Of a stretch of 41,598 nucleotides of DNA, positions 418 through 41,598 are shown one piece after another (the first letter of the stretch is position 1; each line of letters starts with the position of its first letter). Both the position numbers and the translations under genes were made by a program. A model generated the notes under the pieces. It did not search any database and was not told where the DNA came from. It saw only the letters and a list, made by a program, of their open reading frames with translations. Source of the DNA: an uncultured Acetobacteraceae bacterium (lineage in GTDB: Bacteria > Pseudomonadota > Alphaproteobacteria > Acetobacterales > Acetobacteraceae); NCBI GenBank assembly GCA_903918315.1, contig CAIXEA010000150.1, positions 1-41,598 on the forward strand, given 5' to 3'.

Positions 418-2790
418 ATGCCAGCGCACGGGCACGGCGGCGCGGGCGCGGGCCGGGAGGCGCCCCGGGCGCCGCAGCTCGAACTCGAGGGCGTGATCGG
501 CTTCGGTGCGTGCAGCGCGCGCCGCCTGCGCATCCCGCTCGTGTGGGCGTCGGCGGCGTCCGCCGCACCGTCGCTCGCCGCGCAGTCGCCCTCGGGCGGC
601 GCGCGCTCCAGTGTGCTTTCCGGCCTCGCCTCGCCGCTCGAGGCGCCCAGCAGCTCGCAACTCGCGCCTGTCCCGCCCTACTCGCTTCCCCTTACCTTGC
701 CCCCCCCCCCCCCCTCGCTCGACCGTCCTACCCCTCCTAATCTATCCCCCGCCATCTATCCCCCGCCAGGCGGCAAGGTCGTGCAGGGCCTGAAGTGGCA
801 CGCGAACGGCGAGCACCTGATCTACCCGCTGGGCTCCTCGGTCGTCGTCAAGTCGATCGTGACGGGCGCGCTGAGCTTCCTCGCGGGCCACTCGTCGACC
901 GTCACGGCCGTCGCGCTGTCCAAGTGCGGCCGCTACATCGCCTCGGGCCAGCGCACGGAGATGGGCCAGAAGGTGCGTTGCGCACGCCGCCTCCCGCCCG
1001 CACCCGCCGCGCGCCGGCCCGCGCTTGCGCGCGCGCATGCGCGCATACACCACGCATGCGCACGCGCACGCGCTACGCACGCGCTGCGCATGCGCTGCGC
1101 ACGCGCCTAGCACGCGCGCCTAGCACGCGCCTCGCACGCATTCTCACCTCTTCTTTCTTCGCCTTCGCAGTGCCCGATCATCGTGTGGGACTTTGAGGCA
1201 GCGGTGGCTAACCTGGCGCGCGGCGAAGGGCGCCATGACGGCGAGCTCGTGCACAAGCTCGTGCTGCACAAGGTGGCCGTGCAGAGCATCGACTTCTCGC
1301 ACGACACAAAGTACCTCGCGTCGCTGGGCGGCCAGGACGACAACACGCTCGTCATCTGGGACCTCTCGTCGGGCCGCGCCATCGTCGGCACGCCCGCGCA
1401 CTCGTTCGCGGCGCTGGCCGTCTCGTGGCCGCACGGCAGCAACGCGATGCTCATCACGGGCGGCCAGCAGCACCTGCGCAAGTGGGAGTTCAACGAGGAG
1501 CGGCGCCGCCTCTTCCCGGAGGACATGAAGCTGACGGGCGTCAAGCGCGTCTTCACGGCCGTGGCGCTGACGGCGGACGACAAGTCCGTCTACGCGGGCA
1601 CGGCCTCGGGCGACGTGCTGCTCTTCTCGGCGGACACGGCGAACTTCGTGACGACCTCGTCGCACCGCTTCAGCCTCGGCATCAGCTGCCTGGCCGTGCT
1701 CGAGGAGGAGGGCTCGCTGCTGTGCGGCACGGGCGACGGCGCGCTCGTGAAGCTCGGCATGCGCGACCTCAAGTTCCAGAAGGCCGCGGAGCTCATGGGC
1801 GCCGTCACCTCCGTGGCACTTGCGGGCGACGGAGCCTCGGCCTTTGTCGGCACCGAGGCCGGCAACATCTACGGCGTCGCGCTGGACAAGCTCGAGGTGC
1901 AGCTGCGCGGCACGGGCCACACGGTGCCCGTCTCGGACGTCTGCTTCCCGCACGGCACGAGCGAGCTCTTCCTGACCGCGGCCGGCAACGACATCCGCGT
2001 CTGGCACTCGGAGAAGCGCACGGAGCTGCTGCGCATCCAGGTGCCGAACCTCATCTGCAACTGCATCGCCATTAGCAAGCAGGGTACGACGATCGTGAGC
2101 GGCTGGGACGACGGCAAGGTGCGCGCGTTCTCGCCCGAGACGGGCAAGCTGCAGTTCACGATCAACGACGCGCATGCCGAGAGCGTCACGTCCGTGGCGC
2201 TGACGAGCGACGGCAAGCGCCTCATCTCGGGCGGCCGCGATGGCCGCGTGCGCGTCTGGAGCATGGGCGGCGGCGGCAAGGGCCAGCTCATGGAGATGAG
2301 CTTCAAGGAGCACAAGAAGGAGGTGACGAGCATCCGCGTCTCGCACAACGACGAGGAGTGCATTACGGCCTCGGCAGACGGCTCCTGCCTCGTGTGGAAC
2401 CTGCGGCGGGCCTCGCGCGCGAACGCCCTCTTTGCCTCGACTGTCTTCCGCGCCATCCTCTACCACCCGGACGAGAGCCAGCTGCTGACGTGCGGAAGCG
2501 ACCGCAAGCTGAGCTACTGGGACACGACGGACTGCACGGCCATCCGCGTCATCGAGGGGAGCACAGAGGAGATCTGCTCGATCGACATTGAGAAGGAGGG
2601 CAAGCTCTTTGCCTCCGGCGGCGTCGACCGCGTCGCGAAGGTGTGGCTCTACGACGAGGGCGAGACCGTGGCCAGCGGCACGGGCCACGCCGGCACCATC
2701 ACCAAGGTGCGCATCAGCCCCGACAACAAGTACCTCATTACTGTGGGCGCGGAGGGCGCCATCTTCCTCTGGCACCTGCCGCGGGTGTAG
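418..2790 (+). CDS. CFAP52: Cilia- and flagella-associated protein 52 (CFAP52/WDR16), three exons
   Basis: The spliced product is a WD40 protein of about 636 residues; human CFAP52 has 620. The exons I infer are 418-505, 770-972 and 1171-2790. Joined, they read through LELEGVIGFGGKVVQGLK and then YIASGQRTEMGQKCPIIVWDF, matching the known order in CFAP52 (ELDAVIGFNG, EHMIYPLG, GEYIASGQ, ILWDY). Later matches are ELLRIQVPNLICN, AFSPETGKL, EECITASADGSCLVWNL and the C-terminal GAIFLWHLP. The family forms two seven-bladed propellers and is a microtubule inner protein of axonemal doublets, so the source organism builds cilia or flagella. Both introns have GT-AG borders and keep the frame. The gene converges on the HSP70 gene 117 bases away. 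A prokaryotic gene caller would report only the last exon, starting at an internal codon. Confidence is high for identity and moderate for the exact start. Confidence 0.9.
506..769 (+). other. CFAP52 intron 1 (spliceosomal)
   Basis: The 264-base intron has donor G|GTGCGT and acceptor CCGCCAG|GC. It carries a long pyrimidine tract with a run of about 14 C before the acceptor. It interrupts a Gly codon (phase 1); removing it restores IGFGGKVV, the expected family sequence. Read unspliced, the frame gives low-complexity Ala/Ser/Pro sequence unlike the family. Confidence 0.75.
973..1170 (+). other. CFAP52 intron 2 with an alternating purine-pyrimidine tract
   Basis: The 198-base phase-0 intron has donor AAG|GTGCGT and acceptor CTTCGCAG|TGC. 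Its middle, about 1021-1140, is built almost wholly of CG, CA and TG dinucleotides with imperfect repeats of GCACGCGCCTAG. The last 30 bases form a classic TTCTTTCTTC polypyrimidine tract. Splicing joins MGQK to CPIIVWDF in frame. Confidence 0.75.
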
Positions 2791-2907: not shown

Positions 2908-4848
2908 TTAGTCAACCTCCTCGATCTTGGGCCCCGGCGCACCGGCGTCGGCGCCGTCCATGCCGGGCATGCCCTCGTCGTCGCCGCCGCCCATGCCGCC
3001 GGGCGCGCCGCCGGGCTGGCCCGAGTAGAGCTTCGCCATGAGAGGCATGATGATCTTCTCAATCTCCTTCTGCTTCTCCTCGAACTCCTCCTTCTCGGCG
3101 CCCGAGTGCGACTCGAGCCAGGAGAGCGTAGTCGAGACGGTCGACTCGATCTTCGAGCGATCGTCTGCGGCGAGCTTGTCCTTGAGCTTGTCGTCGTTGA
3201 TCGAGTTGCGGATGTTGAAGCAGTAGTTCTCGAGCGAGTTCTTCGCCTCGATCTTGGCCTTGTTGGCCTCGTCGTCGGACTTGTACTTCTCGGCCTCCTG
3301 CACCATGCGCTCGATGTCGTCCTTGCTCAGGCGGCCCTTGTCGTTCGTGATGGTGATCTTGTTCTCCTTGCCGGTGCTCTTCTCGACGGCCGAGACGTTC
3401 AGGATGCCGTTCGCGTCGATGTCGAAGGTGACCTCGATCTGCGGCACGCCGCGCGGCATGGGCGGGATGCCGTCGAGGTGGAACTTGCCGAGCAGGTTGT
3501 TGTCGCGCGTCATGGCGCGCTCGCCCTCAAAGACCTGGATCAGCACGCCGGGCTGGTTGTCCGCATAGGTCGAGAAGGTCTGCGACTTCTTCGTCGGGAT
3601 CGTCGTGTTGCGCTTGATGAGCGCCGTGAACACGCCGCCGGCCGTCTCGAGGCCGAGCGAGAGCGGCGCCACGTCGAGCAGCAGCAGCTCGTCCAGCTTG
3701 CCGCCGCTGTCCTGGCCCGAGAGGATGGCCGCCTGCACCGTCGCGCCGTAGGCCACGGCCTCGTCCGGGTTGATGGACTTGCAGGGCTCCTTGCCGTTGA
3801 AGAACTCCTTGAGCAGCTGCACGACCTTGGGGATGCGCGTGCTGCCGCCGACAAGCACCACCTCGTGGATCTCCTCCTTGCTCATCTTGGCGTCCTTGAT
3901 GACCTTCTCGACGGGCGCGATGGTCTTCTTGAAGTAGTCCATGTTCATCTCCTCGAAGCGCGCACGCGTGACGGTCATCTGGAAGTCGATGCCGTCGTGC
4001 AGCGAGTCGATCTCGATGAAGGCCTGCGTGGCCGTCGAGAGCGTGCGCTTGCTGCGCTCGCAGGCCGTGCGCAGGCGGCGCTTGGCGCGCTCGTTCTTGC
4101 TCAGGTCCGTGCCCTTGTTCTTGCGGTGGAACTCCTGCATGCACCACTCGACCATGCGGTTGTCGAAGTCCTCGCCGCCGAGGTGAGTGTCGCCGGCCGT
4201 GGCCTTGACCTCGAAGATGCCGTCCTCGATCGTGAGCAGGCTCACGTCGAAGGTGCCGCCGCCGAGGTCGAAGATGAGCACGTTCTTCTCGCCGCCCTTC
4301 TTGTCGAGGCCGTAGGCGATGGCCGCGGCCGTCGGCTCGTTGATGATGCGCAGCACGTTCAGGCCCGAGATGACGCCGGCGTCCTTGGTCGCCTGGCGCT
4401 GGCTGTCGTTGAAGTAAGCCGGGACCGTGACAACGGCCTGGGTGACGGTTTCCCCGAGATAGGCCTCGGCGGTTTCCTTCATCTTGCCCAGTACGAAGGC
4501 GCTGATCTGGCTGGGGGAGTATTTCTCGCCTCGCGACTGCACCCAGGCGTCACCGTTGTCGCCCTTGACGATTTCGTAGGGCACCATACCCTTGTCTTTC
4601 GCGACCAGCGGATCGTCGTAGCGGCGGCCCATCAGGCGCTTGATCGCATACAACGTGTTGGTCGGGTTGGTGACCGCCTGGCGTTTGGCGGACTGGCCGA
4701 CAAGGCGTTCGCCGTTGTCGGAAAAGGCGATCATGCTCGGCGTCGTGCGGGCGCCTTCGCTGTTCTCGATCACCCGAACTTCGCCGCCTTCCATGATGGC
4801 GATGCAGGAGTTGGTGGTGCCGAGGTCGATACCGATAACTTTACTCAT
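2908..4848 (-). CDS. dnaK: Chimeric HSP70: bacterial DnaK N-terminus joined to eukaryotic cytosolic HSP70
   Basis: The 646-codon frame encodes an ATP-driven chaperone of the HSP70 family. Residues 1-143 are bacterial Dna[21 protein letters not shown], the ATPase phosphate loop, then [13 protein letters not shown]. From about residue 158 ([15 protein letters not shown]) to the end it is eukaryotic cytosolic HSP70: [42 protein letters not shown], a GGMP-rich tail and terminal PKIEEVD, the TPR-cochaperone motif that bacteria lack. Codon use changes at the same place: A- or T-ending codons are common up to Ala144 (GCT) and nearly absent after it. The 5' end lies in the bacterial order hrcA-grpE-dnaK, 132 bases after grpE; the 3' end converges on CFAP52. 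The bacterial dnaK 3' part and any dnaJ are missing. I treat this as two genes joined artificially, so the full-length product should not be taken as real. Confidence 0.85.
4377..4419. other. Eukaryote-bacterium junction inside HSP70
   Basis: The switch lies between codon 144 (GCT, the last A/T-ending codon of the bacterial type) and codon 158, where the eukaryotic GVISGLN begins in place of the bacterial GKIAGLE. The 42 bases between encode [14 protein letters not shown], identical in most bacterial and eukaryotic HSP70s, so the exact point cannot be set. A shared stretch of this length is enough to join two genomes in a short-read assembly graph. Confidence 0.8.
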
Positions 4849-4980: not shown

Positions 4981-5577
4981 TCAGCCCGCGATTTCAGCGG
5001 CCGGTGCCTTGGCGACCACGACCATGGCCGGTTTCAGCAGCCGTCCATGCAGAGTCCAGCAAGCAGACCAGGCCTGCATCACGGTGCCGGGCTTGTGTTC
5101 GGTACTTTCCTGCTCGGCCATCGCCTGATGCAGATTGGCGTCGAACGTCTTGCCGACGGGGTCCTCTTTCTTGATGCCGTTGCGTTCGAGGATGCCGATG
5201 AAGCTGCGTTCAACGCCCTCCAGGCCTTCGCGGACCTTGCCGACGATGGCGGGCTGGTCGTTGGCGACCGGGGGCAGGGCGTCGATACCGCGCTTGATGT
5301 TCTCCGCCGCTTCGACCACGTCGGTCGCGAATTTCTGCACCGCGTATTGGCGGGCATCATCGGCGTCGCGGCGGGCGCGGGCGCGGACATTGGCGTTCTC
5401 CGCCTCCGAACGCATCCAGCGGTCTTTCATCTCCGCCAGCTCGGCTTCCAGCTCGCCAATGCGTGCCGTCGCCGCCTGCATCAGCTGTTCCGGGGTTTGC
5501 GGGGTTTCGGGGGAAGCGGCATCCGGGCCGTGCTCGGTCGCCGGATGCGCGGGATTGTGGTCGGGTGCGGTGTTCAT
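4981..5577 (-). CDS. grpE: GrpE nucleotide-exchange factor
   Basis: This encodes a cytoplasmic cofactor of DnaK that speeds ADP release from its ATPase domain. The product of 198 residues matches the family length. A low-complexity N-terminus rich in His, Pro and Glu is followed by the long helical dimerisation segment (about residues 30-95, including ELEAELAEMKDRWMRSEAEN and VRARARRDADDARQYAVQKF). The C-terminal beta domain ends with the family pattern AMAEQESTEHKPGTVMQAW, then LLKPAMVVVAK. I chose the ATG at 5577; a TTG 36 bases upstream is in frame but no better supported. No clear Shine-Dalgarno site precedes either. It lies between hrcA and dnaK on the same strand, the usual alphaproteobacterial order. 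Confidence 0.93.
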   Translation of the reverse strand: MNTAPDHNPAHPATEHGPDAASPETPQTPEQLMQAATARIGELEAELAEMKDRWMRSEAENANVRARARRDADDARQYAVQKFATDVVEAAENIKRGIDALPPVANDQPAIVGKVREGLEGVERSFIGILERNGIKKEDPVGKTFDANLHQAMAEQESTEHKPGTVMQAWSACWTLHGRLLKPAMVVVAKAPAAEIAG

Positions 5578-5692
5578 GGCCGGTGAGTTAGGGCGGCAAG
5601 CGGCTGACGACAAGCCTCGGGAGGAATGAATGTGCCGTGTCTGGCGCGCACCATGATGACAGCCGAGACGGATGGTGTGGTTTTTGCCGTTT

Positions 5693-6835
5693 CTACCCTA
5701 ACAATCGCCCAATCACCCGCGCCGTATAATCCACCACCGGGATGATCCGCCCGTAATTGATCCGCGTCGGTCCGATCACCCCGATCGCCCCCACGATCCG
5801 CCCGCCCTCGCCCCGCGCCGGAGCCACCACCATCGACACGCCGGAGGTTCCGAACAGCCCGCTGTCCGCGCCAATGAAAATTCGCACCCCGTCGGATTGT
5901 TCGGCCAGTTCCAGCAACCGAAGCATGGTCTCCTGCGCTTCCAGCCGCTCAAACAAAGCCTGGATCGCGGCCAGACTCTCGATCTGTGTCACATCTGACA
6001 GCAGCTTCGCCTGGCCGCGAACAATCAGGCTGCCGCCGCGGCCCTCGCCGGTCCAGGTGGCCAAACCGGCCTCCACCACCTGCGCCGACAGCGTGTCCAG
6101 TTCCGTCCGGTTCGCCGCCATTTCGCCGGCGACGTATTCCCGCAGCTCCAGCAGCGGCCGCCCTGAAAGACGCGCGTTCAGATAGTTGCTGGCCTGCTGC
6201 AGGGCGGAAGGAGGGACCCCGGCCGGGATCTCGATCACCCGGTTTTCCACATGCCCATCGGCTGCCACCAGCACCACCAAGGCCCGGCCGGAACCCAGTG
6301 GCACGAACTCGATGTGGCGCAGCGCGCCCTCCGCCTTTGGCGCCAGGACCAGCCCCGCGGCGGCCGATAGGCCGGAGAGCATCGTGCTCGCTTCCGCCAA
6401 TGTGTCTTCCAGGCTGCGGCCGGCGGTGGCGAGGGTTGCGGTGATCGACGACCGCTCATCCTCCGTCAGCTCACCGAAATGCAGCAGCCCATCCACGAAC
6501 AGGCGCAACCCTTGATCTGTCGGCAACCGTCCCGCCGATGTATGTGGCGCAAACAACAACCCCGAATCCGTCAGATCGGCCATCACATTGCGAATGGTCG
6601 CCGCGGACAAGTTTCCCGGCAGCCGGCGGGATATGGTGCGGCTGCCCACCGGCTCACCGGTTTCGACGTACTGCTCGACCACTTCCCGGAGCACAGCGGC
6701 TGAACGGGCATCCAGACCGGGCGGCAGCAACGGCCCCACGCCAGCGATCCGCGTACCCAAACGCGATGCATGGACCTGAGTCGTGCCAACGGAGCGACTC
6801 GGTGACAGGCCTGGCGGGATCATCGGATGGTTCAT
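5693..6835 (-). CDS. hrcA: Heat-inducible transcription repressor HrcA
   Basis: This is the repressor of class I heat-shock genes; it binds the CIRCE operator and is activated by GroEL. The 380-residue length is typical or slightly long. After a variable 40-residue start comes the winged-helix domain (about 40-100) with VEQYVETGEPVGSRTISRR and LSAATIRNVMADLTDSGLL, then HTSAGRLPTDQGLRLFVDGL, all hallmarks of HrcA. The C-terminal half carries the GAF-like sensor region with IFIGADSGLFGTSGVSMVVA and GRIVGAIGVIGPTRINYGRI. It is first of the hrcA-grpE-dnaK set, 115 bases ahead of grpE. I found no CIRCE inverted repeat (TTAGCACTC-N9-GAGTGCTAA) upstream of hrcA, grpE or dnaK, so these genes may answer to RpoH while HrcA acts elsewhere, for example on groESL; that is inference. 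Confidence 0.93.
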   Translation of the reverse strand: MNHPMIPPGLSPSRSVGTTQVHASRLGTRIAGVGPLLPPGLDARSAAVLREVVEQYVETGEPVGSRTISRRLPGNLSAATIRNVMADLTDSGLLFAPHTSAGRLPTDQGLRLFVDGLLHFGELTEDERSSITATLATAGRSLEDTLAEASTMLSGLSAAAGLVLAPKAEGALRHIEFVPLGSGRALVVLVAADGHVENRVIEIPAGVPPSALQQASNYLNARLSGRPLLELREYVAGEMAANRTELDTLSAQVVEAGLATWTGEGRGGSLIVRGQAKLLSDVTQIESLAAIQALFERLEAQETMLRLLELAEQSDGVRIFIGADSGLFGTSGVSMVVAPARGEGGRIVGAIGVIGPTRINYGRIIPVVDYTARVIGRLLG

Positions 6836-40400: not shown

Positions 40401-41460
40401 GATCGCCATTGTCCTGTTCAACCTCGGCGGTCCGGATCGCCCCGAGGCCATCAAGCCGTTTTTGCAAAACCTGTTCAGCGACCCCGCCATTCTGCGGGTG
40501 CCGTTTTTCATACGGTTCTTTCTGGCGCGGATCATTGCCCGCGCCCGCCTGAAACCCGCGACGGAGAATTACGCTTTTTTGGGTGGCAAATCGCCGTTGC
40601 TGGAACTGACGCAACAGCAGGCGGCGGCGCTGCAAGGCGCGTTGGACGATATGGACGCGCGGTGCTTCATCGCGATGCGCTATTGGCACCCCTTCAGTCT
40701 GGAGACCGCCCGCGCGGTGAAGGCATGGGGTCCGGACGAGATCGTCCTGCTGCCCCTGTATCCGCAGTACTCCTCAACGACCACCGGCAGTTCGCTGACG
40801 GCCTGGCGAACGGCGGCGGCTCAGGCTGGTTTGGCGGCGCGCACCACGACGCTATGCTGCTACGCGACCGATAGCAGCTATGTCGCCGCCACCGCCGCGA
40901 TCGTCCGCGGTGCCTATGACCGCGCGCGCGCATCGCTTGATCCGACCGTGCCCTTGCGAGTCCTGTTCTCCGCTCACGGGCTGCCGGAAAAGATCGTCAA
41001 AGCCGGCGATCCCTACCAGGCGCAGATCGAGCAAACCGCGGCGGCCGTGCTGGCCGATTGGGGTGCCTCCGGCCTTGATACCGTTGTCTGCTATCAATCC
41101 CGCGCCACCCCGGTGAAATGGATCGGCCCCAGCACGGATGAAGAAATTGAGCGCGCCGGACGCGACGGCGTCGCGGTCCTGGTCATTCCCATCGCGTTTG
41201 TGTCAGAGCATTCCGAAACCCTGGTCGAACTTGATATCGAATACCGGCATCTGGCGGAAAAGGCCGGCGTCAAAGGCTATTTCCGAGTGCCAACGCAAAC
41301 CACCGATCCCGCGTTCATCGAAGCCTTGGCCGGTTTGGTGCGCAGAAGTCTGGACGCTGGTCCCGGCCTGTGCAGCCATGGCGGCAGGCGCCTCTGCGCG
41401 GCGGAGCACACGGACTGCCCTTTCGCGCTGGCATCAACTGCCGGTGAAAAACCGCATTAG
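40390..41460 (+). CDS. hemH: Ferrochelatase, with a C-terminal cysteine cluster
   Basis: The 356-residue enzyme inserts iron into protoporphyrin IX. It starts at the GTG at 40390 (MARKIAIVLFNLGGPDRP), overlapping hemE by 11 bases. AFLGGKSPLLELTQQQA, YWHPFSLETARAV, LPLYPQYSSTTTGS, FSAHGLPEKIVKAGDPYQ with the metal-binding His, YQSRATPVKWIGPSTDE and PIAFVSEHSETLVELDIEYR are all family blocks. The C-terminus has three Cys (CSHGGRRLCAAEHTDC), and TLCCYATDSS carries two more in the middle. Caulobacter and animal ferrochelatases bind a [2Fe-2S] cluster with one internal and three C-terminal Cys, so this one probably does too. The stop TAG falls where an IS630-type element begins. Confidence 0.95.
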   Translation: MARKIAIVLFNLGGPDRPEAIKPFLQNLFSDPAILRVPFFIRFFLARIIARARLKPATENYAFLGGKSPLLELTQQQAAALQGALDDMDARCFIAMRYWHPFSLETARAVKAWGPDEIVLLPLYPQYSSTTTGSSLTAWRTAAAQAGLAARTTTLCCYATDSSYVAATAAIVRGAYDRARASLDPTVPLRVLFSAHGLPEKIVKAGDPYQAQIEQTAAAVLADWGASGLDTVVCYQSRATPVKWIGPSTDEEIERAGRDGVAVLVIPIAFVSEHSETLVELDIEYRHLAEKAGVKGYFRVPTQTTDPAFIEALAGLVRRSLDAGPGLCSHGGRRLCAAEHTDCPFALASTAGEKPH

Positions 41461-41598
41461 AGCATGTCCGACTTATATCCGTTCATATCCTGAGTGTCGG
41501 ATGTAGTTGGCGCATTCCTCTGGCGTGAAATGGTCGATGAGCTTTCCGATACGATGCCAAACCTCGGCGATGGAGCGCTCATCGGCTTTGCGGAGTAG
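41459..41598 (-). mobile_element. 3' end of an IS630-family insertion sequence
   Basis: The end of an element abuts the hemH stop. IS630 elements insert at TA, and the stop TAG at 41458-41460 could be target TA plus the first base of the element, GAGCATGTCCGACTT. The other end is outside the window, so neither the inverted repeat nor the target duplication can be checked. Confidence 0.55.
41473..41598 (-). CDS. IS630-family transposase, C-terminal end (partial)
   Basis: Reading leftward from the window edge, 41 residues run LLRKADERSIAEVWHRIGKL then IDHFTPEECANYIRHSGYER to a TAA at 41473. The pattern RxIGxLxxxFTPxECANYxRxxGY is the common C-terminus of IS630-type DDE transposases in alphaproteobacteria. 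The catalytic domain lies outside the window, so activity cannot be judged. The stop is 12 bases from the hemH stop, with the genes convergent. It is too short to carry any catalytic residue. Confidence 0.8.
   Translation of the reverse strand, partial: LLRKADERSIAEVWHRIGKLIDHFTPEECANYIRHSGYERI

Follow-up and report, generated by a model that had tools for sequence, protein, structure and literature searches.

In the GUNC paper, misassemblies are treated as relatively rare compared with mis-binning, a point against the misassembly reading adopted below, and chimeric contigs of the misassembly type in MAGs are fragments of two sources wrongly placed in one contig (PMC8201837). The contig that we describe here shares this two-source structure. 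It differs from the chimeras described there in that its second source is eukaryotic and its join keeps a reading frame open, and it thus mimics a fusion protein.

The two closest protein types are alphaproteobacterial DnaK and eukaryotic cytosolic HSP70 (HSPA1/HSPA2 type). The locus resembles alphaproteobacterial DnaK in residues 1-144, in the genes upstream, and in an orphan remainder that lies with dnaJ on another contig (C233), but is unlike it from residue 159 of the frame onward. Conversely, it resembles eukaryotic cytosolic HSP70 in residues 159-646 and in the terminal EEVD, but the protein is without the cytosolic N-terminal part.

The window (the whole stretch of 41,598 bases that was analysed) is contig C150 of the draft bacterial genome G000 (5,040,268 bases, 241 contigs), which is probably a metagenome bin of a genus to which an uncultured Rhodopila sp. 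also belongs. We conclude that the window is very probably a misassembly, that is, a chimeric contig of this draft. There is no biological novelty in its HSP70 frame. With this result, a false case of transfer from a eukaryote to a bacterium, and of an EEVD chaperone in bacteria, falls away. A warning pattern also emerges: the draft looks good by quality (completeness 100, contamination 1.38), and the fused frame passes one DnaK cut-off. If left in public databases, the chimera could seed wrong annotations.

A composite HSP70 frame

A single open frame (2908-4848, reverse strand) starts with ATG, encodes 646 amino acids with no internal stops, and terminates in ...PKIEEVD, such that EEVD is at the C terminus. 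It consists of an alphaproteobacterial DnaK start and a eukaryotic cytosolic HSP70 end. The earlier note had read it as one HSP70 frame running from a bacterial DnaK start to an EEVD end, and the length of the frame and the PDB scores of both parts agree with that reading. The features of the locus are as follows:

418..2790, forward strand: CFAP52, a eukaryotic WD40 ciliary protein; predicted exons at about 418-505 (start provisional), 770-972, and 1171-2790
2908..4374, reverse strand: C-terminal three quarters of a eukaryotic cytosolic HSP70, residues 159-646, its own N-terminus missing
4375..4416, reverse strand: shared tract, residues 145-158, [14 protein letters not shown], assignable to neither side
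4417..4848, reverse strand: 5' part of bacterial dnaK, residues 1-144, by DNA identity, upstream hrcA-grpE, and codon preference (residues 138-144 by codon use only)
4981..5613, reverse strand: bacterial grpE (Pfam GrpE, 142.4 bits; cut-off, 25.8)
5693..6835, reverse strand: bacterial hrcA (TIGR00331, 286.6 bits; cut-off, 197.2)

Searching the two halves separately, as had been advised, gives different nearest relatives. Among PDB chains (best 60 of 114), residues 1-157 score 242 bits with mitochondrial Hsp70 and 232 with DnaK, versus 169 with cytosolic HSP70; by these scores they are not a cytosolic-type N-terminal part. The eukaryotic part was compared with PDB chains and prokaryotic genome collections. 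Its PDB scores (2908-4374) are 719 bits with HSPA2, 707 with HSPA1A, and 705 with a Heat shock protein 70A; for a slightly longer C-terminal query, the highest score with a DnaK chain is 446 bits (best 60 of 95).

DNA comparisons within the genus follow the same division. Nucleotides 1-200 of the frame's dnaK have 80-91% ungapped identity to 15 complete same-genus dnaK genes, and nucleotides 546-700 have an ungapped identity of 0.39-0.46 to 18 same-genus sequences. With gaps allowed, window positions 3289-3873 are 72% identical to same-genus dnaK, and the bacterial part is 84-86% identical. Judged by these alignments, the frame is not close to same-genus DnaK along its full length. Scored as a whole against NCBIfam models, it exceeds the cut-off of PRK00290.1 for bacterial DnaK (839.0; cut-off, 648) and falls below that of TIGR02350 (815.3; cut-off, 822.55).

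A switch in codon use at the join, also claimed earlier, is borne out. Codon preference reverses sign along the frame, and a single break fits best after residue 144 (residues 139-147 lie within 4 bits). The test is partly circular because its eukaryotic table was trained on residues 171-646 of the frame itself together with the last CFAP52 exon (1,015 codons), residues 1-170 being kept out of training. The bacterial table comprises 11 hand-chosen ORFs (5,215 codons), some of which were checked by family search. GC3 rises from 0.82 in residues 1-136 to 0.98 in residues 159-646.

The flanks belong to the respective halves. On the bacterial side, the gene order hrcA-grpE-dnaK is upheld by matches of hrcA and grpE above their TIGR00331 and Pfam cut-offs; grpE also matches 21 GrpE models in the NCBIfam search, every one below its own cut-off. 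Beyond the 3' end lies the spliced ciliary gene that the sequence had suggested: each of the top ten PDB matches to its last exon is a CFAP52/FAP52 chain, its two predicted introns (506-769 and 973-1170) are of the GT-AG type, and exon lengths of 88, 203, and 1,620 bases preserve the reading frame. The flank at 1-2900 matched only itself among the 40 scored of 114 first-look candidates; in the search with the end of C233, 40 of 73 were likewise scored. The two sides of the join come from different organisms.

The displaced half of dnaK

An Hsp70-family search of the draft genome found four places: the window frame, a partial frame on C233, and two weak matches. The partial match begins at profile position 135, and the dnaK match extends to base 55,995 of the 55,997 bases of C233. 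Read on the coding strand, C233 opens at dnaK nucleotide 407 (equivalent to window position 4442), proceeds to a normal DnaK end, and continues into dnaJ. Its DnaK protein is 95.8% identical to that of the relative G009 over residues 137-639. In the draft, bacterial dnaK has a single start and a single end, and grpE also occurs once. We thus observe directly that the displaced continuation of the native dnaK is present on another contig of the assembly, where it is cut at the corresponding position.

The two contigs also fit together. In three relatives from the same genus (G009, G001, and G003), the dnaK locus is continuous, and C150 and C233 abut there without a gap. At one locus (L129), the last base of C233 and window position 4443 fall on adjacent bases, 10352 and 10353. 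At two others (L128 and L130), the last base of C233 falls on 6325 and 5964; the window alignment begins 8 and 7 bases in and extrapolates to 6324 and 5963, so adjacency there is extrapolated. DNA identity to the three relatives is similar for both contigs (C150, 83.9-85.9%; C233, 85.0-88.0%). An assembly join had been thought the likely cause, and an orphan half that ends at nucleotide 407 and abuts the window on three relatives strengthens that view. Because of this orphan half, the fusion is not to be read as gene transfer.

Position and origin of the join

The change had been placed within 42 bases, with the protein eukaryotic from residue 158. The eukaryotic character does extend to the terminal EEVD, but the first clearly eukaryotic residue is V159, residues 145-158 being unassignable. 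The 42-nucleotide tract (4375-4416) is directly observed in bacterial relatives: of 19 same-genus dnaK sequences, 5 carry it without any change. The shared run reaches 48 bases in G010, and all five matches stop precisely where the eukaryotic residues start. Six bacterial records of the genome collection carry the 48-nucleotide version, in dnaK-like frames. The join is most likely inside 4375-4416, and its widest bounds are 4375-4442, somewhat beyond the 42 bases first proposed.

Those wider bounds replace a join at 4436-4442 that was first read from V140 and from the 7-base agreement with C233. They were widened because AVVTVP also occurs in the bacterial dnaK of G015 and G001, and because codons 139 and 144 are of bacterial appearance. 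The agreement between C150 and C233 extends over only 7 bases (nucleotides 407-413), and the two contigs differ at 9 of 68 positions over nucleotides 407-474, six of them ahead of the tract. Together with mixed codon signals (GTT139 and GCT144 look bacterial, ACG141 leans eukaryotic), these mismatches indicate that the tract in C150 is not simply C233 sequence, and one has to suppose either a second strain in a strain mixture or a break that came slightly earlier. Thus, one of two situations holds: C150 and C233 stem from two closely related strains binned together, or the join is at 4436-4442, which would need the eukaryote to use two codons seldom found in its other genes. The contig is chimeric under both alternatives.

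As to origin, a short-read assembler probably followed the bacterial hrcA-grpE-dnaK region into an extremely conserved stretch of the ATPase domain and switched there to a eukaryote's cytosolic HSP70, the eukaryote being GC-rich, flagellated, and presumably present in the same, mixed sample. The switch would be caused by identical or near-identical bases in both genes over 40-odd positions, and the remaining bacterial dnaK and dnaJ would be left as the cut end of C233. We infer that the join formed in the graph at small k and was then carried to large k. The 42-nucleotide tract, if also present in the eukaryote, is a plausible bridge for such a join. From codon preference alone, the probability that both organisms share all 14 tract codons is about 5e-5; an exact match would be unlikely for any single pair, but assemblies sample very many pairs. 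A cellular mechanism is unnecessary: the sole process is the joining of two HSP70 genes via their most conserved stretch.

At the right end of the window (41458-41597), 139-140 bases are 100% identical to the starts of three other contigs of the draft (C132, C86, and C63). The same end is 99% identical over 114 bases to C87:13818-13931 and 80% identical over 139 bases to C98:783-921. This end is a repeat where contigs stop, and its 139-140 shared bases would be consistent with a maximum k near 141. A stratified-lake dataset in which Alinen Mustajarvi was sampled was assembled using Megahit with default settings (PMC8121793).

Other explanations were weighed. The chimera could have arisen in the tube, by PCR or template switching in the library at the same conserved tract, and then been assembled. 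Conserved tracts also favour such products, and C150 and C233 overlap by 7 bases versus the 139-140 at the right end of the window, unlike a simple graph branch. We nevertheless regard this origin as unlikely, since library chimeras are usually rare, and one would have to be abundant enough for assembly over both flanks. Recombination in nature, whereby the bacterium acquired an HSP70 from a eukaryote, together with the adjacent gene, and the HSP70 became fused in frame to dnaK, would be consistent with a frame that stays open through the join and with an overall GC that is similar on both sides. It is, however, very improbable given that the bacterial 3' half and dnaJ persist at the end of another contig, which stops at the corresponding position, and that the flank retains two predicted introns and ciliary coding. 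Furthermore, an EEVD-terminal DnaK is found in none of the 29 relatives' loci whose ends were examined. There is likewise very little chance that in a minority of cells DnaK and HSP70 are truly fused in frame, with an EEVD end and a eukaryotic flank acquired along with it, while the others keep the dnaK of C233.

The C-terminal part might also be proposed to derive from a giant virus and not from a cellular eukaryote, as HSP70s are numerous in IMG/VR (at least 593 of 600 matched stretches encode relatives). However, the best 80 IMG/VR loci reach only 46-54% identity in their best segment, positions 2908-4374 score 705-719 bits with cytosolic HSP70 chains, and the neighbouring gene is a CFAP52 with introns. 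A viral source is therefore extremely improbable. Misassembly with the HSP70 of a cellular eukaryote remains the explanation that we favour.

dnaK in relatives and searches for other eukaryotic DNA

The DnaK search spanned 40 genomes, G000 itself among them. A whole, one-frame dnaK is present in 15 of the 23 same-genus relatives (G001-G023), while in seven (G002, G005, G011, G014, G015, G022, and G023) the gene is broken, gapped, or partial; no dnaK was found in the remaining genome, G013, which is 64% complete. These seven genomes suggest that dnaK often breaks in such drafts. In G005, the dnaK locus (L035, G005:C115:143500-151500) contains six N runs of about 250-320 bases, and 2-5 residues are duplicated flanking some of them. 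A reading of these as six insertions of 249-319 bases was rejected, because N runs with few other bases are scaffold gaps; a repeat search at this dnaK found nothing. The locus consists of scaffolded dnaK pieces and is a further sign of dnaK breaking assemblies.

Sixteen same-genus DnaKs (L006-L020 and L033) have an internal EEVD a few residues before a lysine-rich end. Thus, only a terminal EEVD is diagnostic, and a plain text search for EEVD would mislabel these proteins.

The draft may contain wider eukaryotic contamination. A histone search of G000 found none. An actin-family match on C91 (43.4 bits; cut-off, 27) lies in a 386-aa frame that also has a weak Hsp70 match; this is probably MreB, as the same search also matches in bacteria, E. 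coli among them. Open frames of G000 also hold five Ser/Thr protein kinase domains, of either bacterial or eukaryotic origin, on C225, C124 (two), C22, and C89. Among the relatives, it is G010 that places the genus: at least 3,000 consecutive bases of it are identical to CAIZFE010000098.1 from an uncultured Rhodopila sp.
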